From Nitrospira sp. BO4 (GTDB taxonomy: Bacteria > Nitrospirota > Nitrospiria > Nitrospirales > Nitrospiraceae), in assembly GCA_030144965.1 (NCBI GenBank), contig JAMPUU010000018.1, positions 62,001 to 126,000 on the forward strand: a stretch of DNA of 64,000 nt, written 5' to 3'. Both the position numbers and the translations under genes were made by a program. Under the pieces are notes generated by a model. That model made no database searches and was not told the DNA's origin. It saw only the letters and a list, made by a program, of their open reading frames with translations. Of the stretch, positions 4,985 through 62,254 are shown piece by piece (within the stretch, counting starts at the first letter, position 1; every line of letters begins with the position of its first letter).

Positions 4985-5078
4985 CGGCCGGCTGTCCATA
5001 TTAAACGGGGCCGCATTCTACATGGTTGCCGCCGAAGAATGAAAGGGTGATATCAGCAAGCGGGCTGAATCGAAAGTG

Positions 5079-7397
5079 CTATTTGATCGCGACGGCTTTG
5101 ACTTCCTTATAGGTCGTATGGCCCTGCAAGACTTTTTGAACGCCGTCTTGAACAAGAGTCGTCATTCCTTCTTCGAGTGCCGTTTTGAGCATCTCTTCGG
5201 TGCGAGCCTTCTGTTGCACCATTCGCTTCAGTTGGTCCGTACCCAAGAGGAGTTCGTGTAGAGCGACCCGTCCCTTGAAGCCGGAGCGGTTGCACGTTTC
5301 GCACCCCTTCCCGCGAGAAAGCCGAAAGGTATTATCCTGTTTGATGCCGAGCTTATCCCAGTACTCAGCCCCGTATCCGAGTCGGAGTTCTTCATACTCC
5401 TCCTTGGTTCCAATGTACTGCTCTTTGCACTCTTTGCAGATACGGCGAGCGAGACGTTGCGCGAGCACACCCAGCATGGCATCGGCGAAGCTGAACGGGT
5501 CACAACCCATATCGAGTAGGCGCGTGACCGTTTCGACGGCGCTGTTGGTGTGCAGTGTGCTCAATACCAGATGGCCGGTCAGTGACGCTTCGATGCCCGT
5601 GTCGGCGGTTTCTTTGTCCCGCATTTCTCCCACCATGATGACGTCGGGGTCGGCCCGAAGAAAGGCGCGCATCGCGTTGGCGAACGTGAGCCCGATCTTC
5701 GGCTGGACCTGCACTTGTCGAAGGCCATACTGTGTAATTTCGACCGGATCTTCCGCTGTCCATATTTAAATGTCGGGGGTGTTGATGTTGCCGAGTACCG
5801 AGTGAAGGGTGGTGGTTTTCCCGGAGCCGGTCGGACCAACGCACAGAATGATGCCGTAGGGCTTTTCCGAAATCTCCTTCAGCACTCTGAGGTTCCGATC
5901 AGAGAACCCCATCTTGTCGAGAGGCAGCGGCTCGCTTGCCGCCAGGATACGCATGACCACGTCTTCGTTGTATCCGGCTGTGGGAAGCGTCGCGACGCGG
6001 AGTTCGATCTCTTTCGTCTCCGAAAGCTTGAACTTGATCTTGCCGTCTTGAGGTTTGCGGCGCTCGGCAATGTCCAGACTCGCCATGATCTTGAGTCGCG
6101 AGACGATGGCGCGGCGGTAACTCTGAGGGATCTTCATGTATTCGAAACAATCCCCATCGACTCTAAAACGCACGAGCGTTTCGCGCTTTTCTCCATACGG
6201 CTCGATGTGAATGTCCGATGCATTTTGACGGTAGGCATCGGCGATGATCTGGTTGGCCAGACGGACGATCGCGCTGTCGTTTTCGTCCAAACCTCCGGCT
6301 CCGGCGGAATCCTCCATCGCCTCGGCTTGTGCCTCGGTAACGAGTTCGCCGAGAATATCGGACACGTTTTCATCGAGTTTCCTCCCTCCAGTATCGGTTT
6401 GTCCGGTGGCGGAGGTCAGAAATTGCGCGATGTCGCGGCGCAGACTGACGGCAAAGCGAATATTGAGCCCGGGAAACGTTCGCTTGATGTCTTGGACGCG
6501 GTCAAGATCTCCGGGATCGTCGGTGAGAATCTCGATGGCCGTGCGGTCTCGTTTGAGCGGCATCCAATGGTTCTTTTTGAGGTAGTCGACGTTGAGGTTC
6601 TTCAGCAACTCCACATCGACAAGGGTGCGCTCACTGTACTCGATATACGGACACTTATAGAACTGGGCGAGCGATTTGCCGATATCGATCTTCGGGACTT
6701 TGCATTTTTCGATCAGGATGCTCTCCAGGTCGCTCATCCCTTTTCGGGAGTCCGCGATAGCCTGGTCGAGTTCATTCTGTGTAATCCGGTTGTTGCTGAC
6801 CAAGAGATCGAACTTGGTGGGGTTCTTTTTTGAGATCTTCCGAAGATTGAAGAAGGCGATTCCAAGCGCCTTCGCGATTTCGTCGACGGCCTCTTCATCT
6901 TTGCGGGTAAACCGACTCCCGCTTTTTTTGTTGAGAAGTTGCAGGACTCCCATCAGGTATTTGTTGTCGGCGACAATGGGATATGTCAGAACCTGTTTGG
7001 TTTTGAAGCCGGTGCGCTTATCGTAGGATGTGTCGTGAAGCAGCGACGGATGGATCGCTTGGAGCTCCATCATGTTGTAGGCGTCGGTGATATTGACGGG
7101 GCGGAGGTATTTGGCGCAGAAACCGGCGAGACTCTGCTCGGTAATGGGGATGCGGACTTCTTCGACGCTGTCGATATGCGGAACTTTGGAGAAGATTTCT
7201 TTCTTTTCAGCGTCAAATGCGAAGAGCGTCAGGTCTTCTGCGTCGAACAGACTCAGGATGTCCTTGTGCAAGTCGAGAAGGATTTGATCAAGATTGCTGG
7301 CCGCGTGAACCTGAGTGGTGATCCGTTTGACGTGCTCGGCGTGCTCGACCTTTTGCTGCAGCTCCTGAAGGTTCTGAGTCATCGGCTTGGCTTGCAT
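5079..7397 (-). pseudogene. GspE/PilB-type secretion or pilus ATPase interrupted by an in-frame TAA
   Basis: Read through, this is a 772-residue-scale type II secretion/type IV pilus assembly ATPase: an N-terminal GAF domain (about 20-170), a GspE/MshEN N-domain, then the RecA-like motor. Walker A (GPTGSGKT) is at 521-528. A TAA at 5768-5766 ends the first part at residue 543. Reading resumes in the same frame with [10 protein letters not shown], followed by Asp-box/Walker B ([12 protein letters not shown]), His box and a tetracysteine zinc site (CKEC...CETC). Neither half could hydrolyse ATP alone. A single A-to-T change (AAA Lys to TAA) would explain it. It could be a pseudogene, a base error or stop readthrough. 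Confidence 0.8.
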
Positions 7398-7601
7398 CCG
7401 ACTGCGCTCTCTCCGAGGTCGGGACGTGAACCAATAAGATTGTACGCTGGATCAGTAGGCACCAGCCGGAACGGGTCACAGGTTGTGAATTGAGCTTCAG
7501 TCTAACCGAACGGCACGAGAAGGCAAGGAAAACGCGGTTTCCGCCGGTCGAGTTCGGAGAAAATCGGAAAGTCGTGTGAGGCCGGAACACTGAAAAATGG
7601 C

Positions 7602-9320
7602 TCACGTCGGGGGTGAATCGGATTCGTGAGAAAGTGTCCTGAGATGCGCGAGGAGATCACCGGGAGCGATGCGGGTTTTGATGCCGCTTCTTCGAATTTT
7701 GATCTCCACGATGCCGTCCGCAAGACCTTTATCGCCGACGACCACCTGGAACGGGGCGCCGATCAAATCGGCATCGTTGAATTTGACGCCTGCGCGATCG
7801 GCTCGGTCGTCCCATAATACTTCGAACCCTGCAGCCATGAGGTCGGAATAGAGACGTGCGGCGGTTTCAGTGGTCTTTTCCGATTGGCTGACCGTCAGGA
7901 GGTGCAGATGAAACGGCGCGATGGGAAACGGCCAGATGATACCCTTCTCGTCATGATTTTGTTCGATCGCAGCAGCGGCGGTACGACCGACGCCGATGCC
8001 GTAGCAACCCATGATGGCGAGGCGCTCCTTGCCCTGCTCGTCGAGGATGGTGGCGTTCATTTTCTGGCTATACTTGGTGCCGAGTAGGAACACCTGTCCG
8101 ACTTCAATGCCTTTGGCGAGCATCAACTTGCCGGATCCGCGAGGGGAAGGATCGCCGGCTTGCGCATTACGAAGGTCGGCAAATTGTTCAACGGTGAAGT
8201 CGCGCTCAAGATTGGCGTTCAGGTAGTGAGTATCGTCTTTGTTGGCCCCGATCACGACGTTTTTCAGTCCGTTGACGGCGTGGTCTGCCAGAAGACGCAC
8301 CTTCTCTAAGCCGACCGGCCCGGCGAATCCGGGAGCGGCTCCCGTCAGTTGCTGTACCGTCGCGGGATCGGCCAGCGCTGCATCGTTTACCTTGAGCAGC
8401 CGCGCCAATTTCACTTCGTTCAACTCATGATCGCCTCGAATCAGCACGGCGACGGTTTCCGATCCGGCTCGATAGATCAGCGTCTTTACCAATTGTCGCG
8501 GTGAAATCTTCAAAAAGGCCGTCACGTCTTCCACCGTCCGGCGCTGTGGAGTGGCGATTGGAGTCAAGGGGAGCAGGGGCGTCGCATCGACCTCAGCGGG
8601 AGGGAGCACTTCGGCCCGTTCAAGATTGGCGGCATACGATCCCTGGTCGCTGTATGCCACCGTCGCTTCTCCGGTGTCGGCCAGGACCATGAACTCGTGC
8701 GAAACATCTCCGCCGATTAACCCCGTGTCGGCTTCAACCGCACGAAAGGTGAGTCCACACCGCGTAAAGATGCGGGTATAGGCGTCGTACATTTTCTGAT
8801 AGCTGATCTTGGCGCCGGATTCGTCGACGTCGAAACTATAGGCATCTTTCATGATGAACTCACGCCCCCGCATGAGCCCAAAGCGGGGGCGGATCTCATC
8901 CCGGAATTTGGTTTGGATTTGGTAAAAATTCAGCGGAAGTTGGCGATAAGAGCGTACTTCACGGCGGAACAGATCGGTAATGACTTCTTCATGCGTCGGC
9001 CCCAGGCAAAAATCACGCTCGTGGCGATCCTTGAAACGCAGGAGTTCCTTCCCGTAATAGTCCCAGCGGGCCGTCTCTTTCCACAATTCGGCAGGAGACG
9101 CGATCGGCATCAGCAGCTCCTGAGCGCCGGCACGGTTCATTTCCTCGCGAACAATCTGCTCGATTTTGCGGATCACGCGGAGACCGAGCGGGAGGTAGGT
9201 GTAAATACCGGCTGCAACCTTCCGGATCAGGCCGGCGCGCAACATCAATCGATGGCTGACGGTTTCCGCTTCTCCGGGATCGTCCCGCAGCGTGGGAATC
9301 AACAATTGAGATGTTTTCAT
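7602..9320 (-). CDS. proS: Prolyl-tRNA synthetase, bacterial type with editing domain
   Basis: Charges tRNA-Pro with proline in the cytoplasm. The 572-aa length and MKTSQLLIPTLRDDP start match the bacterial-type (ProS type 1) enzyme. Class II motif 2 is seen as FRDEIRPRFGLMRGREF, the YbaK-like insertion domain that edits Ala-tRNA-Pro occupies about 230-390, and the C-terminal anticodon-binding domain follows (LLWDDRADRAGVKFNDADLIG). The ATG at 9320 was chosen by homology; its ribosome binding site is weak and the upstream extension to 9380 runs into the repeat element. It lies in the rseP-proS order common in many bacteria. Confidence 0.97.
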   Translation of the reverse strand: MKTSQLLIPTLRDDPGEAETVSHRLMLRAGLIRKVAAGIYTYLPLGLRVIRKIEQIVREEMNRAGAQELLMPIASPAELWKETARWDYYGKELLRFKDRHERDFCLGPTHEEVITDLFRREVRSYRQLPLNFYQIQTKFRDEIRPRFGLMRGREFIMKDAYSFDVDESGAKISYQKMYDAYTRIFTRCGLTFRAVEADTGLIGGDVSHEFMVLADTGEATVAYSDQGSYAANLERAEVLPPAEVDATPLLPLTPIATPQRRTVEDVTAFLKISPRQLVKTLIYRAGSETVAVLIRGDHELNEVKLARLLKVNDAALADPATVQQLTGAAPGFAGPVGLEKVRLLADHAVNGLKNVVIGANKDDTHYLNANLERDFTVEQFADLRNAQAGDPSPRGSGKLMLAKGIEVGQVFLLGTKYSQKMNATILDEQGKERLAIMGCYGIGVGRTAAAAIEQNHDEKGIIWPFPIAPFHLHLLTVSQSEKTTETAARLYSDLMAAGFEVLWDDRADRAGVKFNDADLIGAPFQVVVGDKGLADGIVEIKIRRSGIKTRIAPGDLLAHLRTLSHESDSPPT

Positions 9321-9368
9321 GGCATTGGAGTCGCTGTTAGGATATGAATCGAACTGTGGAGGATTTCG

Positions 9369-9538
9369 CAGAATGCTCAAACGAGGCGCCTAACGAGGCC
9401 GCAGGTGATAAGAAACCGGAGGCGTATCTGTTCTCACCCGCCCACCCCGAGCTGCCAAGACAGCTCTTTGCCCCGATGGAGTACGTTGAGGATTTCTTTG
9501 AGCCGAGAACGAAGTTAGGGACGTGTTTCAGCATTCTG
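9369..9538. repeat. Palindromic intergenic repeat element, long form (170 bp)
   Basis: The ends are inverted: CAGAATGCTCAAAC on the left and GTTTCAGCATTCTG on the right (13 of 14 pairs). The interior resembles the element at 56147 (shared pieces such as GGCAGCTCGGGG or its complement and a GTTGAG-type stretch). It fills the gap between rseP and proS. Frames on both strands inside it are spurious. Confidence 0.6.
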
Positions 9539-36719: not shown

Positions 36720-36919
36720 TTAGCAGTCGGCTGGTGACGATTGCGCATACGGACAGAGGTGGTTGAATTCTGTCATCGGGACCTGCCAATCGGAGCAAGC
36801 CATACCCCTTCATTCTTGAATTTTCCACTATAACTCAATGCGCAGTCATCTCGTGACGAGGTGTCGCCAGGCTTGAATCCAAATGCACAAGTGGAAGTCC
36901 TATCCTACGGAATCTCCCT

Positions 36920-38077
36920 TCAAAGGCGGCCTCTGAGGAGAAGCGACCCGTACTTGCACACGAGCCGCATCGGGCGAATGCCATAATACAGAAAAGCCAA
37001 GCGCCGCGGCAGAGGCACAAGCTGCCGATCAAGGTTGCAAGGGGCAAAAGCATTATAGATGTAGCGTAAGTAGTAGGGGTGGAGTTTATCTCGGAGGCGT
37101 TCGCGCACATGCCAGCGGAACGTCTCAACTGTCCGCCGCTCCGCGACCACAGGTGCCTCGTTCTGAAACAGTTGCCGCTGCGCGGCTTCAACCAGCCGCC
37201 CAATCGAGGGATGAGACCGTATCGCACGGAGACATGCTTGAGGCATCCTGACTCCGAGGAGGTCGTTGACCAGGGCCAGGCTAAACAGGAGCATGCGTTC
37301 ACCGCCCCCTTGACGTGCGTAGAACAGGGACTGGGCCAGGTCGAGAGAGGGAGAAGCGCGCAACAGGGCGGCCATATCACAGAGTTTCACCAGCTGAAAA
37401 TAGCGACTCCCGGCGTCTTTACTTATCTGGATGGCGAGCATGAGGAGGGTATCTTCCGGCGACAGCGAGGGCACCTTTGTGCCTAGCAAGACGGTATGAT
37501 GACGGCGTTCCCAGAGGTGCTCAAATTGGAGGGGAGAAGGAAACTCCCGCGAGGTCATCCGCTTGTGCAAATCAACCGCAACCGTCCCATTACTATCAAC
37601 ATAGGTCGACTCGTTTTCGAATGCTTCAATGAGACGATAGGCGCTGGTACTGAGAAGGCGCTGCGCACGCTGATAGTCGCGTTCGTGGACCAAAATATCC
37701 AAATCGAAAAATTCTCGTAGGGCAAGATTTCCGTAGATAGAGGCCGCCAAGATAGGCCCTTTGTAGGGGAGGGCAGGAATGACGTGGGCCTCAAGCAACT
37801 TGAGAAGTTTGAGGAGTCCATCTGTTAGAAACAGGGTACGGGCGGCGTTGGCGCGGGAGTGGTATCGGAGTTCTGCCAGAATGGTCGGTGGCGCGTCCTC
37901 GGGGGAAACTGCACGCAGGCTGCGAGACAAGAGCGGCATGACTCCATGCCGGCCGGCGGTCTGGAGCAGAGAGGCCCAGTCGAGGTCAGTGCGGAGCAGC
38001 ACCTTGATCCGCTCAGCTCCTGCCGTATCAATGGAGGTATCTGCGCAGCAGAGCAGGAGTTCGACTTCAGGGCGCAT
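36920..38077 (-). CDS. Nucleotidyltransferase-family protein of the RiPP operon (N protein)
   Basis: A 385-aa protein of the large nucleotidyltransferase family (NTP_transf_5) seen in some lasso peptide clusters beside kinases. The typical stretch YKGPILAASIYGNLALREFFDLDILV contains the DxD-type metal motif (DLDILV). The His/Arg-rich region KRMTSREF and the C-terminal basic helix are also typical. In lasso clusters the partner kinase and nucleotidyltransferase tailor the peptide; the same role here is inference. It starts nine bases after the PqqD-like gene stop and is last in the operon. Confidence 0.85.
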   Translation of the reverse strand: MRPEVELLLCCADTSIDTAGAERIKVLLRTDLDWASLLQTAGRHGVMPLLSRSLRAVSPEDAPPTILAELRYHSRANAARTLFLTDGLLKLLKLLEAHVIPALPYKGPILAASIYGNLALREFFDLDILVHERDYQRAQRLLSTSAYRLIEAFENESTYVDSNGTVAVDLHKRMTSREFPSPLQFEHLWERRHHTVLLGTKVPSLSPEDTLLMLAIQISKDAGSRYFQLVKLCDMAALLRASPSLDLAQSLFYARQGGGERMLLFSLALVNDLLGVRMPQACLRAIRSHPSIGRLVEAAQRQLFQNEAPVVAERRTVETFRWHVRERLRDKLHPYYLRYIYNAFAPCNLDRQLVPLPRRLAFLYYGIRPMRLVCKYGSLLLRGRL

Positions 38078-38085
38078 GGAGCTGT

Positions 38086-38370
38086 CTATGATGTGCCTGG
38101 ATGGACCAGGCCTTCCTGCTGCAACTCGTCCACAAAGGCCAGCAGCACGGGCATCGCTTCTTCATCCGTGACGGCATAGTCGTTCTGCAAGGCCTGGACG
38201 ATTTCCTGCGCGCAGCGACTCTGTTGCAACAGTTCCCAGATGCGGGTTCCGCTTTCATTCAACGTATAGTAACGTTTGGTGTCGAGATGTAGCAGAACCG
38301 CTTCGCTCTCATCGAGCCGCGTGAATACCAGGCTGGGATGGGGATGCAGGACAGTTTCAGGCGCGAGCAT
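38086..38370 (-). CDS. PqqD-like RiPP recognition element (B1 protein)
   Basis: A 94-aa PqqD-fold protein. The strand-strand-helix pattern (LVFTRLDESEAVLLHLDTKRYYTLNESGTRIWELL) matches the RiPP recognition element that grips the leader peptide. In lasso pathways this B1 protein binds the YxxPxL motif of the precursor. It overlaps the radical SAM gene stop by 14 bases and has a strong GAGGAGG. It likely presents the precursor to the B2 peptidase, kinase or radical SAM enzyme. Confidence 0.88.
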   Translation of the reverse strand: MLAPETVLHPHPSLVFTRLDESEAVLLHLDTKRYYTLNESGTRIWELLQQSRCAQEIVQALQNDYAVTDEEAMPVLLAFVDELQQEGLVHPGTS

Positions 38371-39433
38371 GGGATGCCTCCTCAGTGGGTGCGACAGACC
38401 GTCGCGACGGTGGCTCCAGAATATGGGTAAGCTGGGGCACTTTCTGATAGTGCAACAGACAGTGAGTGCAGAGAAATTGCTCTGCTTCCGTGGGAGAGGA
38501 CGTAGCGAGCCGTTCCAGTCTTTCCAGATTGATCTGCGCGATTTTAGTGATCAGGCGGCGATGGGCCTCGACAAAACTCACCCCGTGTAAATCCGCCAAA
38601 ACATCCGTCTCGGACGTGCCCCCGCGATAATTCGAGAGGGTGCAGCAGGCGGTCAGGTTGCCACGGTAATCGATGTTGAACTCCTGCATCTGCAGCTGCG
38701 AGCACTGGCCAAAGCGCGAAGCGGTATAGTGGTCACCCGCCAGGAGGATGGGCATCGTAAACATCTGCTGCAAGGCGGCGATATCCGTCTCCACGTTCCG
38801 TCGTTCACGGGCGTTCAGCACCAGATTGGCGGCGAGGGCGTCGTGGGTAGGCTGACAATGTCCATAGCCTAATGCTGCACAGCCCAGGCGGCTGGCCAGG
38901 ATGGCCATCGCTTCCAGTTCGTCCCGATTGGCATGGGTGACCACCATGTTGAGCTGAACGGGAACGCCCTGCACATGACACAAACTGACCGCCTGCATCA
39001 GCCGGCGAAATGACCCGGGTTGACGCCTCAGGGTATCGTGCGTAGTCTCACTGGCGCCATCGAGGCTCAAAGAGACACGTTCGAGCGAACTTTTCCAGGC
39101 TTGGATCTTCGCGAACGTCTGGGAAAAGTTCCAGCCATTGGTCACAAATGTGAAGGAGTACCGGGCGCATGCCACCAGCTCGACAATCTCGGCAAACTGG
39201 GGGTGCAGAGTCGGCTCCCCTCCGGTGAAAGCTATAAGGTTGACGGGTTGGTACGCCTGCACCTCCGTCAGCACCTTGTTCACGATCGTCAACGGCAGGT
39301 CGTGATGCGGCCCGTCCTCCGACCTGATACAGTGCACACAGCCGAAGTTACAGCGGTTGGTCAACTCGAAGATGAGCTTAATCCCCGATGATGTAGCCGC
39401 CCTCTGTATCAGTGGTGTGGTCCGCGGGTCCAC
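38357..39433 (-). CDS. Radical SAM enzyme with SPASM-like C-terminal domain
   Basis: A 358-aa radical SAM protein. The cluster motif CNFGCVHC gives C28, C32 and C35, followed by a GGEPT motif. C-terminal Cys groups (QCSQL..., TACCTLSN and CTHC) indicate auxiliary iron-sulfur clusters, as in SPASM or twitch RiPP maturases. The GTG at 39433 follows AGGAGG. Such enzymes install C-C, thioether or epimer modifications in peptides; the modification here is not predictable. It lies between the kinase and recognition genes. Confidence 0.9.
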   Translation of the reverse strand: MDPRTTPLIQRAATSSGIKLIFELTNRCNFGCVHCIRSEDGPHHDLPLTIVNKVLTEVQAYQPVNLIAFTGGEPTLHPQFAEIVELVACARYSFTFVTNGWNFSQTFAKIQAWKSSLERVSLSLDGASETTHDTLRRQPGSFRRLMQAVSLCHVQGVPVQLNMVVTHANRDELEAMAILASRLGCAALGYGHCQPTHDALAANLVLNARERRNVETDIAALQQMFTMPILLAGDHYTASRFGQCSQLQMQEFNIDYRGNLTACCTLSNYRGGTSETDVLADLHGVSFVEAHRRLITKIAQINLERLERLATSSPTEAEQFLCTHCLLHYQKVPQLTHILEPPSRRSVAPTEEASHARA

Positions 39434-39449
39434 GCCTTTCCTCCTTTTC

Positions 39450-40493
39450 CTATGTGCAACGCGCTTGCTGTTGTATCTCTTCCAGGAGAGGGGCAATGCG
39501 CCGCGGGTTGCGGGCCAGGTCCTGACCAGCCAGAAGTCGATAGTGCCGACTCTGGCGTACTAGACGCACCAGAACGTCCAGATGGCCAGATGCTTGCTGG
39601 GGATCTATCGCCAGCAGGGCACTCTGCTGGATCAGCCGTAAGAGCGCATCGGCTTTCCCGATGGGGACCAGCTCGCTTTCCGGCTGGGCCACGATGGTAG
39701 GGAACAAGAGCAGGTCCGGTTGGCAGGTGTCACGGATCTGCGCTGGGTACAACGCTCGCACCTCGAGGCGCTGTTTCGTGTCCTCACGGAGCAGGCAGGT
39801 CTGCCAGTGATCGCTAGTGTCGGGGAACAGCGCCGCAGCCTCAGGGGCCAGGTACAGGTCCTGTCGAAGCGGCAAAACATCCACGTGCTCTCCATGAGAG
39901 CGACGGAAAACAACGGCATCATCAGCGAGGTAGTTCCAGCCTGCTTGGACGAGGCCGAGCGTCAGGGTCGACTTGCCGCTGCCACTATCAGCGACGATCA
40001 GGCAACCGCCATCCTCGTTGGCGAGACACGCGGCGTGCGCCGCATACCATCCCTGTCTGCGCAGCAAGAGGAGCAAGCTGTAGAGGAACAAATCTACGGG
40101 CAGTGTTGGCGCGGTTAACGACGCAGCCAGCAATGTTCCGATACCTTGACCTACAGCAGGATCAAGCTTGACGAGCCACTCGCGATCACCCAGGTAGAGT
40201 TCTGTGTTGACCTGCCAAACCTGCAGGCCATGGTGCTGTGCTACGGGACAGGCAGCGGCAGGGAGAGAGACTTGAGAATCCTGCGTGCGCCACATCATGG
40301 TCACCGGACACTCCACAGAGTCGCGAGGGATAGGGGCCAGACCGAAGTAGGCGCAGAGCGCTTGTACCCGCGCTCCGATCTGAGCCGCGTCCCAGCCGAT
40401 CAGAACCCCGGTGCCGTGAACCTCGTAAGGGGCATAGACCATGGACTCGGCACATCGCATCAAGGAAGGTCCTTCCCACGGCAGAGGAATCAT
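39450..40493 (-). CDS. HprK-like kinase of the RiPP operon
   Basis: A 347-aa protein related to HPr kinase and to the kinases of phosphorylated lasso peptides. The P-loop ADSGSGKST is at residues 168-176, with LADDAVVF following. Lasso kinases phosphorylate a C-terminal Ser of the precursor; the precursor here has Ser54 and several Thr. The ATG at 40493 shares one base with the precursor stop (TGATG); a GTG at 40496 overlaps by four bases. Either way it is translationally coupled to the precursor. Confidence 0.85.
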   Translation of the reverse strand: MIPLPWEGPSLMRCAESMVYAPYEVHGTGVLIGWDAAQIGARVQALCAYFGLAPIPRDSVECPVTMMWRTQDSQVSLPAAACPVAQHHGLQVWQVNTELYLGDREWLVKLDPAVGQGIGTLLAASLTAPTLPVDLFLYSLLLLLRRQGWYAAHAACLANEDGGCLIVADSGSGKSTLTLGLVQAGWNYLADDAVVFRRSHGEHVDVLPLRQDLYLAPEAAALFPDTSDHWQTCLLREDTKQRLEVRALYPAQIRDTCQPDLLLFPTIVAQPESELVPIGKADALLRLIQQSALLAIDPQQASGHLDVLVRLVRQSRHYRLLAGQDLARNPRRIAPLLEEIQQQARCT

Positions 40494-40675
40494 CACCGAG
40501 GGCGTGTGTGGGGTGAAAACGTTCCGAAAAAGGCCGCCGTCACGGCCGGCAGCGTGGCGTGTCGTGTCAGGATTGGCCGCACGAAGGGCTTCTTCCGTGT
40601 CGGCTCATTCTCAGACTGGTCTACATGACGGTCTTGGCGTTGCAGGGTATCTCCGTTCGAAATCTTGGTATCCAT
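40493..40675 (-). CDS. RiPP precursor peptide, 60 aa, lasso-like leader
   Basis: A short gene with an AGAAGGAGA site just before its ATG at 40675. Residues 31-36 read FVRPIL, matching the YxxPxL leader motif bound by B1 proteins. T46 sits where lasso leaders have their penultimate Thr, so cleavage after A47 would release A48-R60. After E24 there is no Asp or Glu, so this core cannot form the lasso isopeptide ring. The leader is hydrophilic; the last 14 residues contain GTFSP and HTRPR. It overlaps the B2 gene end by 55 bases. Confidence 0.8.
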   Translation of the reverse strand: MDTKISNGDTLQRQDRHVDQSENEPTRKKPFVRPILTRHATLPAVTAAFFGTFSPHTRPR

Positions 40676-41145
40676 CGTAATCTCCTTCTCTGGTGAACGT
40701 TGTCCATAGGGAACGTATACACAGTGGTAAATGCACGCCGTGGGTCGCCCTTCTCGCCAAAAGGTTGGTCTGCCAGCTCGATCCAACAATGGCCTTCGAG
40801 GGCCTCGTCTCGCTTGGCCACTCCAAAATGCAGAGTAACAGGAGCGCCCCATTGGCGGAAAAAGTGAAACAGCACCAGCGACTGCTTCATGCAGTTGGGG
40901 CGGAGCAGGCCGATGCGCTGTTGCAGGAGCCGCTGGATAAGAAACAGCAGACGCTCAGGTTTCAGTGGTGGGAGCCGCGTCGGCATCGTGTTCGCCCCGA
41001 ACAAGGTGACCAGGGCAGGCAGCGAAAGCACCCGCTGCAAGACGGGGAGTGCCACCAGCAGGCCCACGCTCGACATCAGCAGCCGGAGCTCGTGCCGGCG
41101 GAGCGTAGCGAGCTTCCTATACACAGCTTCCAACCGTGCGGGCAT
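40621..41145 (-). CDS. Lasso peptide biosynthesis B2-type leader peptidase
   Basis: A 174-aa transglutaminase-fold cysteine protease of the lasso B2 family. The triad is C85 (RPNCMKQSL), H119 (EGHCWIEL) and D126 (ADQPFG). In lasso pathways it removes the leader after the penultimate Thr, with B1. Two hydrophobic helices precede the core. The start at 41145 has AGAGGAAGA upstream; the frame extends to 41223. Its last 18 codons overlap the precursor start in a different frame. Confidence 0.9.
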   Translation of the reverse strand: MPARLEAVYRKLATLRRHELRLLMSSVGLLVALPVLQRVLSLPALVTLFGANTMPTRLPPLKPERLLFLIQRLLQQRIGLLRPNCMKQSLVLFHFFRQWGAPVTLHFGVAKRDEALEGHCWIELADQPFGEKGDPRRAFTTVYTFPMDNVHQRRRLRWIPRFRTEIPCNAKTVM

Positions 41146-41312
41146 ACCGTCTTCCTCTCTCTGTCGCGAAGACGTTGATCGCGCAGGGGACCTGATGGTA
41201 GCGCGCTCCATCGCGCATGTCAAAACACCTTATGAACGCCCTACTCACGCTCGAGGTTTTCACGCATCCTGCGTACGACTGGTGACGTATCCTTCCTTCT
41301 ACCGTAATCGTG

Positions 41313-41798
41313 TCAGTGTTGCGATGGGTCAAACGTAAATTGAAACGGCCCGGTTGCGGGAAGATCGTCGAGCTGTGTCAATTTAGTCTGGCCCTTGGGT
41401 AACACATAGACTTTGGCAATCCGATGCGGTGGAGCGTTTGGGCCCTGCGCCGTGGCAATCGCCACATTCGGGCTTAACTGTTTGAGGGCTTTGTCCAGCG
41501 GCATTGGGCTCAAGTGGATGGTGATCCGCTCGTCCACACCGGAATACATCATGACGATGGGGATCTTCGTGCGTTGTTCGATCTCAGCCAGGATGGCCGC
41601 CAGCGACGCCTCGTAGGCGTCCAGCGAGAGCTCGCGTTCTGTCACCGTCAGGCGAAACGTGCCCTCGGCAAGGAACGAGGTCGCCCCTGGTGGCGTAGAC
41701 TGCGCGGCCGCAAGGCCGGTCAGCAGTAGCCCTCCCAAGATCAGTCCCATAACATGGACGGTCATCCTCGAAGACCAGGAGAGTTGCATGTGTGGCAT
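41313..41798 (-). CDS. Secreted STN-domain (secretin/TonB short domain) protein
   Basis: A 161-aa protein with a signal peptide (MQLSWSSRM... ending GLAAAQS) and an STN-like domain in the rest: LDAYEASLAAILAEIEQRTKIPIVM and TIHLSPMPLDKALKQL match that fold. STN domains are periplasmic modules of secretins, TonB receptors and FecR-type signalling. Standing alone, it may bind a peptide or couple to a secretin. The ATG at 41798 has AAGGAGA. Placed directly before the B2 gene (167-base gap, no terminator seen), it may belong to the RiPP operon. Confidence 0.75.
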   Translation of the reverse strand: MPHMQLSWSSRMTVHVMGLILGGLLLTGLAAAQSTPPGATSFLAEGTFRLTVTERELSLDAYEASLAAILAEIEQRTKIPIVMMYSGVDERITIHLSPMPLDKALKQLSPNVAIATAQGPNAPPHRIAKVYVLPKGQTKLTQLDDLPATGPFQFTFDPSQH

Positions 41799-41882
41799 GG
41801 TCAGTTTCTCCTTTGCAAAGAACCTGGTGATTGCCTCTGTGCCTTTTGAGCATAGAGCTGACACCAAGCGCTGAAGCTCCTT

Positions 41883-43487
41883 CTATCGCGTGCCCAACAC
41901 ATCTACGAAGAACGTGAATTGATCAAACGTCTTCAAGCAGAGCGTCACCGGTAGCCCCACATGTTCCTTGGCCGTCAGCACGCCATCGGTATACTGCCCG
42001 CTCGGGCTGAACGTGACAGTCGCGCCATCCCCGCCCAACCCGCCATCAGCGTTGAGCACGAGGTTGCCCTTGGTGAGGGTGGCCACCTCGGCGACCACGT
42101 GGGACAGCGGCGGACTGCCGGGCTTGTTGGCCAGGTCCGCGGTGAAGCGAAATTTCCCGACAGAGCCGGCGGGGCATCCGGTCGTGTCCCGACTGGTTTG
42201 ATACGTGGCAGGGAGCGGCGTGAATGTCACGAGGCTGTTGAGCGTCTGCAGCTGAGCGGAATTGGCCTCCACGGCGCCTATGTCACAGAGGGCAGTGCCG
42301 TTGCGGTCCCCATCGGCCGGGCGGAAGAACCCCCGCTGGTCTGTCCCAAGCGGATTGCCCCCGGCGCCAGTGCAATTGGCCGTCGGAATGGCGTCAATCG
42401 CGGGGCTTTTGCCCGTGCACCCAGCAGGCGTGCCGGATCCGGTGCAGAGTGCGAGGGTCTTGGTCGGCCCGCCGTTGTCCTTCAACCCGGCAGGATCAAG
42501 CCGAGGGTCAATGTTGGATTTGTCGCCCGGGCCGGTGAGCCCACAACTGCCCGCTTGGTCCAGGTTATAGCCCAGGGAGGTTACGGGGCCGGAGCACCCA
42601 TCGGCAATGAGGCTGCTGTGCAGCCTGAGGGTCTCGCTATTAAAAATGCCGGTGCCGTTGTCGCTGACCGTACTGTGGCTGAGCGTCAGGGCGCCCTCAT
42701 TACATATGCCACTGACAAAGGCGCAAAAGCGCCCGCAACCGTTGCCGCTAACCGTGCTGTTGCTGAGCGTCAGAGTGCCCCCAGGCGCATTATAGATGGC
42801 GCCACCAGCAGCTTCCGTCCTAGGATGCCCATCAATGACGTTGCCGCTAACCGTGCTGGTGCTGATCGTCATGGTGCCGCGGTTAGCAATGCCGGAGCCG
42901 CAAACGCCGAAGCCGCAGAAAATGTTGCGGTTATCGCGGATCGTGCTGTTGCTGATGGTTGTGGTGCCACTGTTGCTGATAGCTCCATCACCAGATTCAG
43001 TGAAATGGCCGCTGACCGTGCTGTGGCTGAGGGTCAGGGCACCACTGTTGCCGATGCCGCTCCCGTCGGCGACTGTGAGGTGCGTCAAGGTCAGCACTCC
43101 GGCTGGGCCCACACCAATCCTCCCGCCGCTTGTGGTAATTCCCCCGCCGCCGTCGATGGTCAGGCCTCCTACGTTGGTAATGCTCAGGCTTGAATCCAGA
43201 CTGATTGTCCCGCTCACGGTGAACGTAATGGTGTCGGCGCCATGGCCGGCGGCGCAATCGGTGGAGCCGGAGTGGCTATCCTGCTCGGCATTGAGGATGG
43301 CTTCACGCAGGGTACAGACCCCATCCCCCGAGACCACCGTATCCTCCAAACTGTTGACCACAATCGTGGCCGCCCAAGATCTTTCGGGCCAGGCCAGCGA
43401 ACAGAACCCCGTTGCCAGGGCTACACAAAGTATGACGCCCGGATCAGTCCACCACGGCTTTACCGCTGATTTCGTGTCCTGCGTCAT
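41883..43487 (-). CDS. CSLREA-domain, right-handed beta-helix secreted protein, copy 1
   Basis: A 534-aa secreted protein. A signal peptide ends near WAATIVVNS; the CSLREA-type motif GVCTLREAILNAE follows. The centre is a run of about 20-residue repeats (LTLSHSTVSGHF, TISTSTVSGNV), typical of right-handed beta-helix surface proteins. The C-terminal 200 residues are a conserved module shared with the two upstream paralogues, ending FFVDVLGTR. It is 84 bases upstream of the STN gene. Adhesion or surface role is inference. Confidence 0.82.
   Translation of the reverse strand: MTQDTKSAVKPWWTDPGVILCVALATGFCSLAWPERSWAATIVVNSLEDTVVSGDGVCTLREAILNAEQDSHSGSTDCAAGHGADTITFTVSGTISLDSSLSITNVGGLTIDGGGGITTSGGRIGVGPAGVLTLTHLTVADGSGIGNSGALTLSHSTVSGHFTESGDGAISNSGTTTISNSTIRDNRNIFCGFGVCGSGIANRGTMTISTSTVSGNVIDGHPRTEAAGGAIYNAPGGTLTLSNSTVSGNGCGRFCAFVSGICNEGALTLSHSTVSDNGTGIFNSETLRLHSSLIADGCSGPVTSLGYNLDQAGSCGLTGPGDKSNIDPRLDPAGLKDNGGPTKTLALCTGSGTPAGCTGKSPAIDAIPTANCTGAGGNPLGTDQRGFFRPADGDRNGTALCDIGAVEANSAQLQTLNSLVTFTPLPATYQTSRDTTGCPAGSVGKFRFTADLANKPGSPPLSHVVAEVATLTKGNLVLNADGGLGGDGATVTFSPSGQYTDGVLTAKEHVGLPVTLCLKTFDQFTFFVDVLGTR
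41928..42545 (-). repeat. Paralogue module, direct repeat copy 1 (618 bp)
   Basis: This stretch aligns without gaps to 43603-44220; by eye I count four single-base differences, all transitions. It encodes the shared C-terminal module of the CSLREA proteins. Confidence 0.9.
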
Positions 43488-43557
43488 CGATCCCTCCGTC
43501 CGTTACTACGAATGCAGCGCCTCCCGGTCACTCCCGCTGCCCCACGGTTCTCCGATC

Positions 43558-45240
43558 CTACCGCGTGCCCAGCACATTCACGAAGAACGTGAAGGGGGAG
43601 AACGTCTTCAAGCAGAGCGTCACCGGTAGCCCCACATGCTCCTTGGCCGTCAGCACACCATCGGCATACTGCCCGCTCGGGCTGAACGTGACAGTCGCGC
43701 CATCCCCGCCCAACCCGCCATCAGCGTTGAGCACGAGGTTGCCCTTGGTGAGGGTGGCCACCTCGGCGACCACGTGGGACAGCGGCGGACTGCCGGGCTT
43801 GTTGGCCAGGTCCGCGGTGAAGCGAAATTTCCCGACAGAGCCGGCGGGGCATCCGGTCGTGTCCCGACTGGTTTGATACGTGGCAGGGAGCGGCGTGAAT
43901 GTCACGAGGCTGTTGAGCGTCTGCAGCTGAGCGGAATTGGCCTCCACGGCGCCTATGTCACAGAGGGCAGTGCCGTTGCGGTCCCCATCGGCCGGGCGGA
44001 AGAACCCCCGCTGGTCTGTCCCAAGCGGATTGCCCCCGGCGCCAGTGCAATTGGCCGTCGGAATGGCGTCAATCGCGGGGCTTTTGCCCGTGCACCCAGC
44101 AGGCGTGCCGGATCCGGTGCAGAGTGCGAGGGTCTTGGTCGGCCCGCCGTTGTCCTTCAACCCGGCAGGATCAAGCCGAGGGTCAATGTTGGATTTGTCG
44201 CCCGGGCCGGTAAGCCCACAGGTGCCGATCTTGTCTAGGTTATAGCCTAGAGAGGTGATGGGGATGCCCGGGGGACCGAAGAGGTTGGCTGCGGCGCACC
44301 CATCGGCAAGGAGGCTAGTGTGCAGCTTCAGGGTCCCGCTATTAAAGATGCTACCGGTGGCGTTGTTACTGACCGTGCTGTGGCTGAGCGTCAGGACCCC
44401 CTCATTATAAATGCCCGTGAGAGTAACTGTAATGGGGTCGAGCGTATCGCTCACGGTGCTGTTATTGATGGTCAGGATCCCCTCCGGCCCATTATGGATG
44501 GCGCCCCCACCACCAAAGTGGTCTTCCCTACCACATCTGCAGAACCCCTGGTTACCGTTAATCGTGCTGGTGCTGATCGTCATCGTGCCATGGTTATCAA
44601 TGATGCCGCCATGGTGATCGAAAGCGGGGAGTGCGGCCGTGTTATCCCTTACCGTGCTGTGGCTGATGGTCAGGGTGCCCCCAGTCGCATTATAGATGGC
44701 GCCATCCTGTTCAGATTCAAAGAAAGGAGAGGAAGGGTCTAAGCCGAAGTTGTTGCTGACCGTGCAGTTGTCGAGGGTCATGGTGCCAGCGTTGGAGATT
44801 CCGCTACTGTTGGCAAATGTGAAATTCTTCAATGTCAGCACGCCGGCAGGGCCCACACTGATCCCAGAGCCAAAGCCGCTGATGGTAATTTTTCCACCGC
44901 CGTCGATGATGAGGCCCCCGGCACTGGTCATGGTCAGATCTGAACTGCTCAGGGCATTGATCGTCCCGCTCAGGCTGAAGGTAATGGTGTCGGCGCCATG
45001 GCCGGCAGCGCAGTCGGTGGAACCGGAGTGATTATCGTGCTCGGCGTTGAGGACGGCTTCGCGCAGGGTACAGACCCCATTGTTGGACACCGTATCGTCT
45101 AAGCTGTTCACCACGATGGTGGCCGCCATTCCAGTACCGGGCAGAGCCAGCGAACAGAACCCCGTTGCCAGGGTTACACAGAACATGACGCCCAGATCAA
45201 TCCACCACGGCTTTACTGCTGATTTCATGTCCTGCGTCAT
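43558..45240 (-). CDS. CSLREA-domain, right-handed beta-helix secreted protein, copy 2
   Basis: A 560-aa paralogue. It shares MTQD.KSAVKPWW and the signal peptide with copy 1, and the CSLREA motif GVCTLREAVLNAE. The beta-helix section has its own sequence (SSGISNAGTMTLDNCTVSNN), but from about residue 350 to 545 it is almost identical to copy 1. The last residues differ (SPFTFFVNVLGTR). The start at 45240 has TGGAGGAA. Function is inferred only from architecture. Confidence 0.82.
   Translation of the reverse strand: MTQDMKSAVKPWWIDLGVMFCVTLATGFCSLALPGTGMAATIVVNSLDDTVSNNGVCTLREAVLNAEHDNHSGSTDCAAGHGADTITFSLSGTINALSSSDLTMTSAGGLIIDGGGKITISGFGSGISVGPAGVLTLKNFTFANSSGISNAGTMTLDNCTVSNNFGLDPSSPFFESEQDGAIYNATGGTLTISHSTVRDNTAALPAFDHHGGIIDNHGTMTISTSTINGNQGFCRCGREDHFGGGGAIHNGPEGILTINNSTVSDTLDPITVTLTGIYNEGVLTLSHSTVSNNATGSIFNSGTLKLHTSLLADGCAAANLFGPPGIPITSLGYNLDKIGTCGLTGPGDKSNIDPRLDPAGLKDNGGPTKTLALCTGSGTPAGCTGKSPAIDAIPTANCTGAGGNPLGTDQRGFFRPADGDRNGTALCDIGAVEANSAQLQTLNSLVTFTPLPATYQTSRDTTGCPAGSVGKFRFTADLANKPGSPPLSHVVAEVATLTKGNLVLNADGGLGGDGATVTFSPSGQYADGVLTAKEHVGLPVTLCLKTFSPFTFFVNVLGTR
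43603..44220 (-). repeat. Paralogue module, direct repeat copy 2 (618 bp)
   Basis: Near-identical partner of 41928-42545. The flanking bases diverge abruptly at both ends, as expected after gene conversion or recent duplication. Confidence 0.9.
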
Positions 45241-45309
45241 TGATTCCTCCATTCGTCACTATGCATGCAGGCCCTTCTGTTCGCCCGCGCAGGTTTATGT
45301 GCCCTCTTT

Positions 45310-46923
45310 TTAGTGCGTGCCTAGCACATCCACAAAGAATGTGAATTGATCGAATGTCTTCAAGCAGAGCGTCACCGGTAGCCCCACATGTTCCTTGGCG
45401 CTCAGCACGCCATCGGCATACTGCCCGTTCGGGCTGAACGTAATAGTCGCTCCATCCCCGCCCAATCCGCCATCGGCGTTCAACACCAAGTTCCCCTTGG
45501 TCAAGGTGGCCACCTCAGCCACCAGGTGTGACAGCGGCGGACTCCCGGGCTTGTTGGTTAAGTCCGCGGTGAAGCGAAATTTTCCGACAGAGCCGGCGGG
45601 GCATCCCGTCGTATCCCGACTCGTTTGATACGTGGCAGGGAGCGGGGTGAACGTCACGAGGCTGTTGAGCGTCTGCAGAGGCGAAGACGTGGCCTCAAAG
45701 GCTCCCATGTCACAGAGCACGGTGCCGTTGCGGTCCCCATCGGCCGGGCGGAAGAAACCCCGCTGGTCCACGCCAAGTGGATTGCCCCCCGCGCCAGTGC
45801 AGTTGGCAGTTGGGATGGCGTCAATCGCGGGGCTTTTGCCCGTGCACCCAGCGGGCGTGCCGGATCCGGTGCAGAGCGCGAGGGTCTTGGTCGGCCCACC
45901 ATTGTCCTTCAACCCGGCAGGATCGAGCCGAGGGTCAATGTTGGATTTGTCGCCCGTGGCGGTGAGGCCACAGGTGCCGATTTTGTCTAGGTTGTAGCCC
46001 AGGGAGGTGATAGGTCCAGAGCACCCATCGGCGAGCAGGCTGGTGCTCAGCTTCAGGGTCCCGTTATTAAAAATGCCGGACGTCACGGCGGGAAAGGAGG
46101 GAGGGAGGGAGCCGTTGTCGCTGACCGTGCTGTAGCTGAGCGTCAGGGTGTTTCCAATCGCATTATGGATGGCGCCACCAGTAGCATCGAATCGAGGGCC
46201 CCCGGTAATGCCGTTGCCGCTGATCGTGCTGTGGCTGATGGCCATCGTGCCACTGTTATCAATGCCGCCGCCGAAGGGAGGAATGAACTCACTCCCCATA
46301 TGCTTGTCAACGCCATTGCCGCTGATCGTGCTGTGGCTGATGGTCATCGTGCCACTGTTGGAGATACCACCCTCAAAAAAGCAGAACAACTCGTTTCCAT
46401 TGACAATAGCGGCGCCATTGCTGTCGACTCTGCTGTCGCTGATGGTCAGGATGCCACCGTTGGAGATACCACAACTTTCGGTCACCGTGAGGTGTGCCAG
46501 GGTCAGCACTCCGGCAGGGTCCACAGTAATCTTACCGGGTCTATCAGACCGCTGTGCATCACTGCCGCTGATGATAATTTTCCCTCCGCCGTCGATGGTC
46601 AGGCCCTTGGGGCTGGTAATGGTTAGGGCGGACGGGACCCTAATCGTCCCGTTCACGGTGAAGGCGATGGTATCGGCGCCACTGCCAGCGGCGCAGTCGG
46701 TGGAACCCGAGTGGTTATCCCCTTCGGCGTTGAGGATTGCTTCGCGCAGGGTACAGACCCCATTGTTGGACATCGTATCGTATAAGCTGTTCACCACAAT
46801 GGTGGCCGCTCCAGCTCGACTGGGCAAAACCATCGAGCAGAGCCCCGTCACCAGGGCTACACCGAGCGTCACGCCCCAGGTACTCCTCAACGTCACCCCT
46901 ACTGGGTTCACGTCACGCATCAT
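45310..46923 (-). CDS. CSLREA-domain, right-handed beta-helix secreted protein, copy 3
   Basis: A 537-aa paralogue, first of the three in transcription order. It has the CSLREA motif GVCTLREAILNAE, then beta-helix repeats (MAISHSTISGNGITG, MTISHSTISGNGVD). Its C-terminal module is like copies 1 and 2 but more diverged at the DNA level. The start at 46923 has GGAAGGA. The gap to copy 2 is 69 bases, so the three may form one transcription unit leading to the STN and RiPP genes. Confidence 0.82.
   Translation of the reverse strand: MMRDVNPVGVTLRSTWGVTLGVALVTGLCSMVLPSRAGAATIVVNSLYDTMSNNGVCTLREAILNAEGDNHSGSTDCAAGSGADTIAFTVNGTIRVPSALTITSPKGLTIDGGGKIIISGSDAQRSDRPGKITVDPAGVLTLAHLTVTESCGISNGGILTISDSRVDSNGAAIVNGNELFCFFEGGISNSGTMTISHSTISGNGVDKHMGSEFIPPFGGGIDNSGTMAISHSTISGNGITGGPRFDATGGAIHNAIGNTLTLSYSTVSDNGSLPPSFPAVTSGIFNNGTLKLSTSLLADGCSGPITSLGYNLDKIGTCGLTATGDKSNIDPRLDPAGLKDNGGPTKTLALCTGSGTPAGCTGKSPAIDAIPTANCTGAGGNPLGVDQRGFFRPADGDRNGTVLCDMGAFEATSSPLQTLNSLVTFTPLPATYQTSRDTTGCPAGSVGKFRFTADLTNKPGSPPLSHLVAEVATLTKGNLVLNADGGLGGDGATITFSPNGQYADGVLSAKEHVGLPVTLCLKTFDQFTFFVDVLGTH
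45358..45972 (-). repeat. Paralogue module, direct repeat copy 3 (615 bp, more diverged)
   Basis: It aligns without gaps to 41931-42545 but with clearly more substitutions scattered along its length than between copies 1 and 2. Confidence 0.85.
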
Positions 46924-47796
46924 AGATCCTTCCGTCAGTCTCTGAGAGTTAGTCGCGAACGCCTGGTGTTCCTGTCGTGCTGGCCACGACACTCAAGCAG
47001 AGCTAGCCTGGTTCGTTGCGAGCCATTCAATCTACCCGTCGCACACTGGCGCACTCACAAACCACCTAACGGTTACCGAAGGACACTGTGAGTCATTAGG
47101 GCCAGTTCTGTTCCAAGAGAGTCAGCGCGACTGAATACGTATTATTCCTCCATGCTCTTTAATTGTTCGGATATCGAAGCGACAACAGAAAGGCCAAGTT
47201 CAGGCTTCAGGTTGGGGAGATATGCCCCAGCATTTGTAAAACCACATGGACAATTGTCAGCAATAATTCATGTTCGTGCGATCTCCGGCCTTCTCCGCAG
47301 TCGGATGTTGCAATAAGACGTTGTTACGATTGGCCGTCCTGCCATGCCTCGAGATTCAGGTGACAACGATGGTCGCGCTAGAAAAAGCGAGTGTGTAGGT
47401 GAGCCGTTGAGGGGGAGATGACCTTGGGATTCCAGTGCGTGGGTTCGGCGAATTGGTCAACATTCCTGGATCCTCGTTCGTCCAAGCTGCCGGCCTTCAG
47501 CAGGGTCATACGGAAGAGGATATGGGCACTAATCGGCTCGTCGTGTGAGATCATCTCTGAATCCCGACCCGTCAGTGCCTCACGAGACTCTTGCTCTCTC
47601 GCTCTATAATGGATGCGACTCTAACTCACAGGAGAGACCTTCGTGGCGGGGCTATCAGCGTAAGCGAGGACGTCGAAGTTGAGACTTTCAGGCCAGGCAT
47701 TGACTGCCTGCAGGGGGGCGAAGTCTTATAGTGAGAGTGTGAGAACGATCAATTCAGCTGATGCCGCGGCGATGGGCGTCCTATGCCAGCCGGTGC
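46924..47796. other. Non-coding stretch of about 870 bases
   Basis: No frame here has both a credible start and protein-like content. It probably holds the promoter for the CSLREA/RiPP genes. A TATAAT at 47605-47610 on the plus strand is followed by AGGAGAGACC and a GTG that opens only six codons, perhaps a decayed gene. The zwf gene ends at its right edge. Confidence 0.4.
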
Positions 47797-61881: not shown

Positions 61882-62254
61882 CCGGTTCTCCATCGGCTGT
61901 CGTTTCCCCGCGTAGGGGATTCAAATGTCAGATACGCCTTGTGGAGGTTTCAGGTTGGCGTAACGGTACGCTGGCAAGCGAATCTCAGTGCTTCCCATGG
62001 AGCACTCTTCCACCCATTGGCCCACTCTTCGCGCGGGTCTCAAAAATTAAAGGATTCCCTTGGTGCCCTAAGCGCCATGCACGGGCGGCCTCACCCATCG
62101 GGAAAGGGTCGCCCGTAGTGAATCCATTCGGGTTTCGTAGGAATGAACCAGAGTGAGACGAGGGAAAAGGTTCAGAGCGTCTAAGGCCTTTTTTGAGAAA
62201 GCAATGTGAGAAGCGCAACGTCTGAGCTCATGGCACAAACGAAAGGAGTGAGCC
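61882..62254. other. Non-coding stretch
   Basis: About 370 bases contain no supported gene. A GGGCG...CGCCC imperfect hairpin lies near 62087-62115. The 61.6-61.8 kb part before it is also empty. Confidence 0.3.

Follow-up and report, generated by a model that had tools for sequence, protein, structure and literature searches.

What is made by an operon that carries the leader-processing enzymes of a lasso peptide pathway together with a radical S-adenosylmethionine (rSAM) enzyme in place of the lasso cyclase? The question is posed by a gene cluster of Nitrospira sp. BO4 (assembly GCA_030144965.1) on contig JAMPUU010000018.1, analyzed here within a stretch of 64,000 nucleotides (positions 62,001 to 126,000; the window). 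The source genome (G000) comprises 4.7 Mb in 30 contigs, and the window lies on contig C18; G, C and L numbers are our labels for genomes, contigs and loci. Our best reading of the sequences is that the cluster encodes a new variant of the rSAM-dependent pathways for ribosomally synthesized and post-translationally modified peptides (RiPPs), one that would be lasso-derived, would yield a non-lasso product and would be coupled to secreted or surface proteins; we place the probability of this reading at roughly 0.72.

The island and its genes

Between 41867 and 36920, the minus strand carries seven genes in the order STN-like protein, B2, precursor, HprK-like kinase, rSAM enzyme, B1 and nucleotidyltransferase, as the initial annotation had placed them. 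They form a tight operon, since the rSAM and B1 genes overlap, as do those of B2 and the precursor, and the kinase gene starts at the precursor stop. The extent first assigned, 36920-41798, proved too small: the unit spans 36742-47796 and includes three secreted-protein genes between the STN-like gene and zwf, so that both the limits of the island and its link to secreted neighbors had been overlooked.

36742..47796, no strand: whole island, present in the window as one block that is absent from a same-species genome
36920..38077, minus: nucleotidyltransferase (NTP_transf_5; PF14907, E=9e-57), DxD motif D125/D127 conserved
38086..38370, minus: B1, PqqD-like leader-binding protein, a RiPP recognition element (RRE; PF05402, E=2e-19)
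38357..39433, minus: rSAM enzyme (PF04055, E=3e-22), probable GTG start at 39433, frame open to 39496
39450..40496, minus: HprK-like kinase (PF07475, Hpr_kinase_C, E=4e-7; TIGR04352, E=9e-13; both under their cut-offs)
40493..40675, minus: precursor peptide, 60 aa, ATG at 40675, conserved in all intact related clusters
40511..40531, minus: conserved core FFGTFSP within the precursor; F49 and F53 invariant, F50 and G51 at least 90% conserved
40538..40585, minus: leader recognition stretch FVRPILTRHATLPAVT, FxxP followed by T at −2; F31, P34, L36 and T46 invariant
40621..41148, minus: B2 leader peptidase, transglutaminase-like (NF033537, lasso_biosyn_B2, 54.6 bits, cut-off 33), probable ATG start at 41148
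41313..41867, minus: secreted STN-like protein ending in PFQFTFDPSQH, assigned by family alignment; strong matches only in cluster-bearing genomes
41883..43487, minus: secreted protein 1, without a Pfam match; C-terminal betaC domain at 41892-42242
43558..45252, minus: secreted protein 2; betaC domain at 43567-43917
45310..46992, minus: secreted protein 3; betaC domain at 45319-45669

The island is gained or lost as one unit. A block of 11,055 bp, containing the seven cassette genes and the three secreted-protein genes, is missing from G288, a conspecific genome (two contigs, 99% complete), where 16 bp stand instead. The flanks of that genome are 99-99.8% identical to the window on either side, with nothing between 36741 and 47797, and the junctions were inspected. 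In another genome (G215), the cluster lies at 2.82 Mb and the orthologue of a flanking gene at 0.27 Mb.

Absence of a lasso cyclase

The asparagine-synthetase-like cyclase (Asn_synthase, PF00733) had been reported missing between the genes that bound the operon; it is in fact absent from the whole of contig C18 and from the neighborhoods of related clusters, including L009-L022. Nine PF00733 matches exist in the genome, on contigs C6, C14, C17 and C24, and none is linked to the precursor. Three of them, on C14, were considered as a lasso cyclase and rejected, as no homologue of B1, B2, the kinase, the nucleotidyltransferase or the precursor adjoins them. Judged by its sequence, the core is incapable of closing into a lasso ring, because Asp and Glu are absent from positions 7-9 of the cores (for example AFFGTFSPHTRPR and GFFGTFVP). 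The leader traits are those of a lasso pathway: B2 scores above its NCBIfam cut-off, B1 is recognized by PF05402, and F31, P34 and T46 are invariant. The proposal that lasso leader processing is joined here to a different core chemistry is therefore borne out as far as the missing cyclase and the unclosable core are concerned, with the rSAM enzyme as the presumed agent of modification. Of the two outcomes that the initial annotation named as refuting it, a cyclase clearly tied to this precursor and an rSAM gene not conserved in related clusters, neither was encountered.

A second cyclase-less lasso-like set, with no rSAM gene, lies on another contig of the same genome (L027:7009-12220; G000:C16, about 95.5-100.7 kb). 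It comprises B1, a 55-aa candidate precursor (7357-7524, ...SYAQPVLAKHELLRDITATRSGNGHKNKFGNWGNFGNFGNFGHRGGRH), an HprK-like kinase, a nucleotidyltransferase, B2 and an ABC transporter; its candidate core contains no Asp or Glu, and contig C16 has no PF00733 gene.

Recurrence of the cassette

The cassette recurs in about 20 genomes; beyond the source genome, homologous clusters occur in three Nitrospira, two Nitrospirota outside that genus, anammox Planctomycetota and one deltaproteobacterium. Recurrence of B2, B1, kinase, nucleotidyltransferase and rSAM genes without a cyclase, which the initial annotation regarded as the mark of a class, is thereby confirmed across at least three phyla. A search of genome contigs with the rSAM enzyme retrieved two Nitrospira metagenome-assembled genomes, one further bacterium, one deltaproteobacterium and seven planctomycete records, mostly of named anammox genera (Scalindua, Brocadia, Jettenia, Anammoxibacter and Loosdrechtia), with the other cassette genes adjoining; L020, L021 and L022, which are unrelated or fragmentary rSAM matches, were not used. 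A profile search found the enzyme in 7 of 396 Nitrospirota and 8 of 392 Planctomycetota genomes.

The rSAM gene is kept in every related cluster found and adjoins B1 in all of them, one fragmentary contig excepted; the precursor also stands beside it in all intact clusters. Gene maps drawn with profiles built here place precursor, kinase, rSAM and B1 genes in nearly all loci, and B2 and nucleotidyltransferase genes in most. The order is B2-precursor-kinase-rSAM-B1-nucleotidyltransferase in Nitrospira and precursor-kinase-rSAM-B1-B2-nucleotidyltransferase elsewhere. The rSAM enzymes of L031 and L032, from other Nitrospirota, share 48-58% identity with their anammox and deltaproteobacterial counterparts but 34-36% with those of Nitrospira, which suggests transfer. 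Several related clusters, though not those of Nitrospira, also contain a GNAT acetyltransferase gene:

L013:7212-7754, L017:6893-7453, L018:7202-7729, L032:9053-9574 and L011:2829-3422: GNAT acetyltransferase

No description of a cyclase-less class with B2, kinase, nucleotidyltransferase and rSAM enzyme was found in the literature searched, which did not cover subscription papers.

The precursor and its core

The precursor gene is preceded by a strong Shine-Dalgarno sequence, AGAAGGAGA, and evolves with a nonsynonymous rate (dN) of about 0.15 against a synonymous rate (dS) of about 0.4. Purifying selection acts on every gene tested and is strongest on the rSAM and B1 genes (dN about 0.1, dS 0.6-1.1). 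Alignment of more than 20 precursors showed that FxxP...[IV]T is common to all, followed by one to five variable residues and then by the core, which is most often [G/A/S]-F-F-G-x-F-x-P and often forms the last residues of the peptide; conservation stops at about core residue 8. The FxxP element is close to YxxP, which with its variants constitutes the lasso-type recognition motif (PMC12710340), and Thr is the penultimate leader residue of lasso precursors (PMC10368454). Every core in the alignment lacks Cys, which rules out a sactipeptide or ranthipeptide thioether. All full-length cores keep at least one Ser or Thr near the motif (at x, before Pro, or replacing Gly), and this residue fits a kinase target, a mild argument drawn from the alignment.

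Extra precursor copies occur at L031:8565-8744, L056:1497-1673 and L015:2088-2282, some with diverged cores (for example ...NITFSIPFSPIPN), and suggest tandem or dispersed duplication of the precursor. A candidate second copy in the Nitrospira sp. BO4 genome was rejected, being a weak match broken by a stop.

The cassette enzymes

Beyond the CxxxCxxC motif, the rSAM enzyme carries the pattern C-x18-C-x58-CxxC; across a 12-sequence alignment the only invariant cysteines of its C-terminal part are C252, C271/C272, C330 and C333, and the seven-Cys SPASM motif with two auxiliary clusters is not matched. Its spacing probably indicates a Twitch domain with one auxiliary cluster rather than a full SPASM domain, so that of the original "radical SAM/SPASM" designation the first half stands (PF04055) and the second probably does not. 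The predicted structure (pLDDT 73) is near BlsE, SkfB, viperin, SuiB and PqqE in fold, a resemblance that names no reaction. The enzyme is an equivalog of neither PqqE nor MftC (pqqE, 56 bits against a cut-off of 381; mycofact_rSAM, 84 against 265). Two-electron oxidations are carried out by BtrN, PqqE and SuiB, enzymes with Twitch or SPASM clusters (PMC9012708).

The remaining enzymes resemble those of lasso pathways. In the kinase, H154, K175, D192 and D193 are conserved and correspond to the His-Lys-Asp-Asp motif reported for lasso kinases (PMC9266682). The best NCBIfam match of B1 is lasso_PqqD_Bac, at 56 bits under its cut-off of 80. B2 also matches PF13471 (E=1e-14) and retains C111, H145 and E157 in 16 of 16 relatives; the invariant Glu lies 12 residues past the His, at a position where Asp is known from lasso B2 proteins.

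Secreted proteins linked to the cassette

The three secreted proteins of the island have in common a domain of about 117 aa at the C-terminus, betaC, which is also found in neighbors of almost all other clusters. The N-terminal parts ahead of it are unrelated to each other (VWA and PKD domains, for example). The betaC domain matched no Pfam family in the proteins scanned. It is modeled with confidence (pLDDT 93) as a beta-sandwich, for which Foldseek returned weak immunoglobulin-like and carbohydrate-binding-module-like matches only, none below E=0.001, and these give no function.

The distribution of betaC follows that of the rSAM enzyme. It occurs in 6 of the 396 Nitrospirota genomes, all among the 7 with the rSAM gene (G196 being the one without betaC), and in 8 of the 392 Planctomycetota genomes, 7 of them among the 8 with the rSAM gene; in the eighth betaC planctomycete, G780, a precursor lies next to betaC at a contig end. 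With phylogeny ignored, the hypergeometric probability of this co-occurrence is 1e-12 in Nitrospirota and 2e-13 in Planctomycetota. The same-species genome without the island has no betaC or STN match anywhere, and G010 carries about 20 betaC copies over many contigs. These observations suggest that betaC is a previously unrecognized secreted-protein domain strictly linked to the RiPP cassette. As for the STN-like protein, the gene is present as annotated; it has no Pfam match here, and its assignment draws on the profile of its family together with a weak resemblance to FecR_C in one relative. Its distribution resembles that of betaC, yet several anammox genomes have no STN gene.

Elsewhere in the source genome, an unlinked betaC and STN gene pair was found at L068:4027-6369 (G000:C26). 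Predicted secreted proteins of very large size are encoded one after another at L070:2116-19001 (G377:C93), where they separate the RiPP cluster from a betaC-STN pair.

Several anammox genomes encode betaC proteins that extend beyond the domain and end in FFGRFRP (...GFFGRFRP), often with leader-like residues ahead of the tail (ATRISGNGFFGRFRP compared with ATKITGNNGFFGTFVS). When 20 genomes were scanned at the codon level, every occurrence of the FFGRF[RY]P form (codons GGC AGR) lay behind a betaC domain. The FFGRFRP tails contain no Ser or Thr. Proteins with such ends are large and secreted:

L014:2696-6259, L015:435-1712 and 5146-9519, L019:3836-6640: large secreted anammox betaC proteins ending in or near FFGRF[RY]P
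L035:13906-15831, L037:1434-2753 and 4573-7284, L072, L073, L076, L077: further such betaC proteins

As read from sequence, the tails tie the peptide to the betaC proteins without saying how. Mutual exclusion of STN and the FFGRFRP tail was considered and dropped, both being present in G780 (L073).

A model for the pathway and its alternatives

The data presented above have led us to propose a lasso-derived rSAM pathway whereby B1 would bind the leader through FxxP and hand the precursor to the Twitch-type rSAM enzyme. The latter may then oxidize Phe within FFGxF, by a C-C crosslink or dehydrogenation; this is our best guess because the alignment shows no variation at F49 or F53. The HprK-like kinase would phosphorylate the Ser or Thr kept in every full-length core, and the nucleotidyltransferase would add a nucleotide or sugar to the phosphate, as proposed for pseudomycoidin. 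From the leader pattern and the conserved Cys-His pair of B2, cleavage is predicted one or a few residues past the invariant Thr, freeing a peptide about 8 residues long or a little longer. The product may serve the betaC and STN proteins in anchoring, maturation or signaling, since the cassette and their genes are acquired or lost together and some of these proteins bear a core-like tail at the C-terminus. More tentatively, the cassette could be the processing machinery of a surface-protein system, in which modified FFGxFxP, or an FFGRFRP tail modified in the same way, would be a tag that anchors, assembles or matures betaC proteins outside the cell, with STN as a periplasmic partner.

Several observations weigh against the pathway proposed. 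FFGxF is unsuited to a simple three-residue cyclophane, which was ruled out, as Gly is allowed at x. The presence of Ser or Thr in all full-length cores has a chance probability of about 2% (assuming independent positions, among sequences that are related), and a truncated precursor copy in L015 lacks the core Ser/Thr. The kinase is undetected in L011 and L018, and the nucleotidyltransferase is missing from L014, L016 and L018, several of these loci being at contig ends. G622 has an rSAM cluster with no betaC detected, and in G196, which has no betaC, the rSAM enzyme, B1 and kinase are divergent and the contig is short. The co-occurrence probabilities take no account of phylogeny, and the Planctomycetota matches appear confined to the anammox lineage. 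Finally, the clusters have no dedicated exporter though betaC proteins are secreted, which leaves the meeting of peptide and proteins unexplained.

If the locus were a decayed or hybrid lasso cluster, its cyclase lost or acting in trans and its rSAM enzyme a passenger, the lasso-type B1, B2, kinase, nucleotidyltransferase and leader would be accounted for, and other PF00733 genes do exist in the genome. The recurrence of the same cyclase-less set with an rSAM gene in at least three phyla, cores without Asp or Glu at 7-9 whose conservation is over by about residue 8, and the isolation of the C14 trio from B1, B2, kinase and nucleotidyltransferase homologues have already refuted the simple form of this explanation and render it extremely improbable. 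A peptide-derived cofactor, comparable to pyrroloquinoline quinone (PQQ) or mycofactocin, would arise if the rSAM enzyme and B1 processed the precursor, B2 freed a fragment, and the kinase and nucleotidyltransferase made it into a nucleotide-tailed cofactor for the cell. The very short core, strongly conserved across phyla and under purifying selection, the paired kinase and nucleotidyltransferase, the lack of an exporter and the presence of PqqE among the structural matches agree with this; however, the co-occurring genes encode secreted, structural-looking proteins (VWA, PKD and repeat proteins) and no redox enzymes, and tails that copy the core would be needless for a cofactor, which makes this origin distinctly unlikely. 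We also consider unlikely an ordinary secreted antimicrobial or signaling RiPP, with betaC and STN proteins as immunity factors, receptors or island hitchhikers: such clusters are typically patchy in distribution, mobile as islands and absent from some strains, as here, but there is no transporter, the core is not hypervariable, and unlinked betaC copies (on G000:C26, and the approximately 20 in G010) track the cassette too.

Relation to known systems

The island shares with the phosphorylated or glycosylated lasso peptides paeninodin and pseudomycoidin split B1 and B2 proteins, a kinase with the H-K-D-D residues, a nucleotidyltransferase, and a leader with [F/Y]xxP and Thr at −2; unlike them, it has an rSAM enzyme, no cyclase, no ABC transporter, and a core of about 8 residues with no acidic acceptor. 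The gene set of an rSAM-RiPP, namely precursor, rSAM enzyme and RRE, is conserved together in all intact clusters. As in the PQQ and mycofactocin systems, a PqqD-like RRE and an auxiliary-cluster rSAM enzyme would act on a short precursor; those systems differ in having neither the lasso-type B2, the kinase and the nucleotidyltransferase nor the FFGxFxP core, and their rSAM enzymes are not equivalogs of this one. The predicted SynChlorMet cassette (NCBIfam ScmC, ScmD, ScmE and ScmF) also combines HprK-like, PqqD-like and rSAM proteins, but all island matches to its families are far under cut-offs, and it is not known to contain a lasso B2 or nucleotidyltransferase.

RRE-Finder counted about 300 lasso-type RREs beside rSAM enzymes as false positives; B1 of the island likewise stands beside an rSAM gene, and the section consulted describes no class with B2, kinase, nucleotidyltransferase and rSAM enzyme and no such core (PMC7470986). 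The PEP-CTERM/exosortase and GlyGly-CTERM/rhombosortase systems consist of many secreted proteins with a common C-terminal region whose phylogenetic profile matches one machinery (PMC1569441, PMC3237569). BetaC proteins are likewise profile-matched to one machinery; in contrast, betaC is predicted to be a folded beta-sandwich and not a short transmembrane signal, and the machinery is a RiPP cassette in which no sortase-type enzyme was identified.

Implications

In this family, the lasso toolkit of B1, B2, kinase and nucleotidyltransferase is found paired with another core enzyme, and this in nitrifiers and anammox bacteria, groups with few known peptide natural products. FFGxFxP offers a precise, testable substrate for a new rSAM family. 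The link between the RiPP cassette and betaC, together with the tails that mimic the core, suggests that modified peptides have functions other than those of antibiotics and cofactors; if the tag proposal is true, a RiPP would be used as a protein-sorting device.

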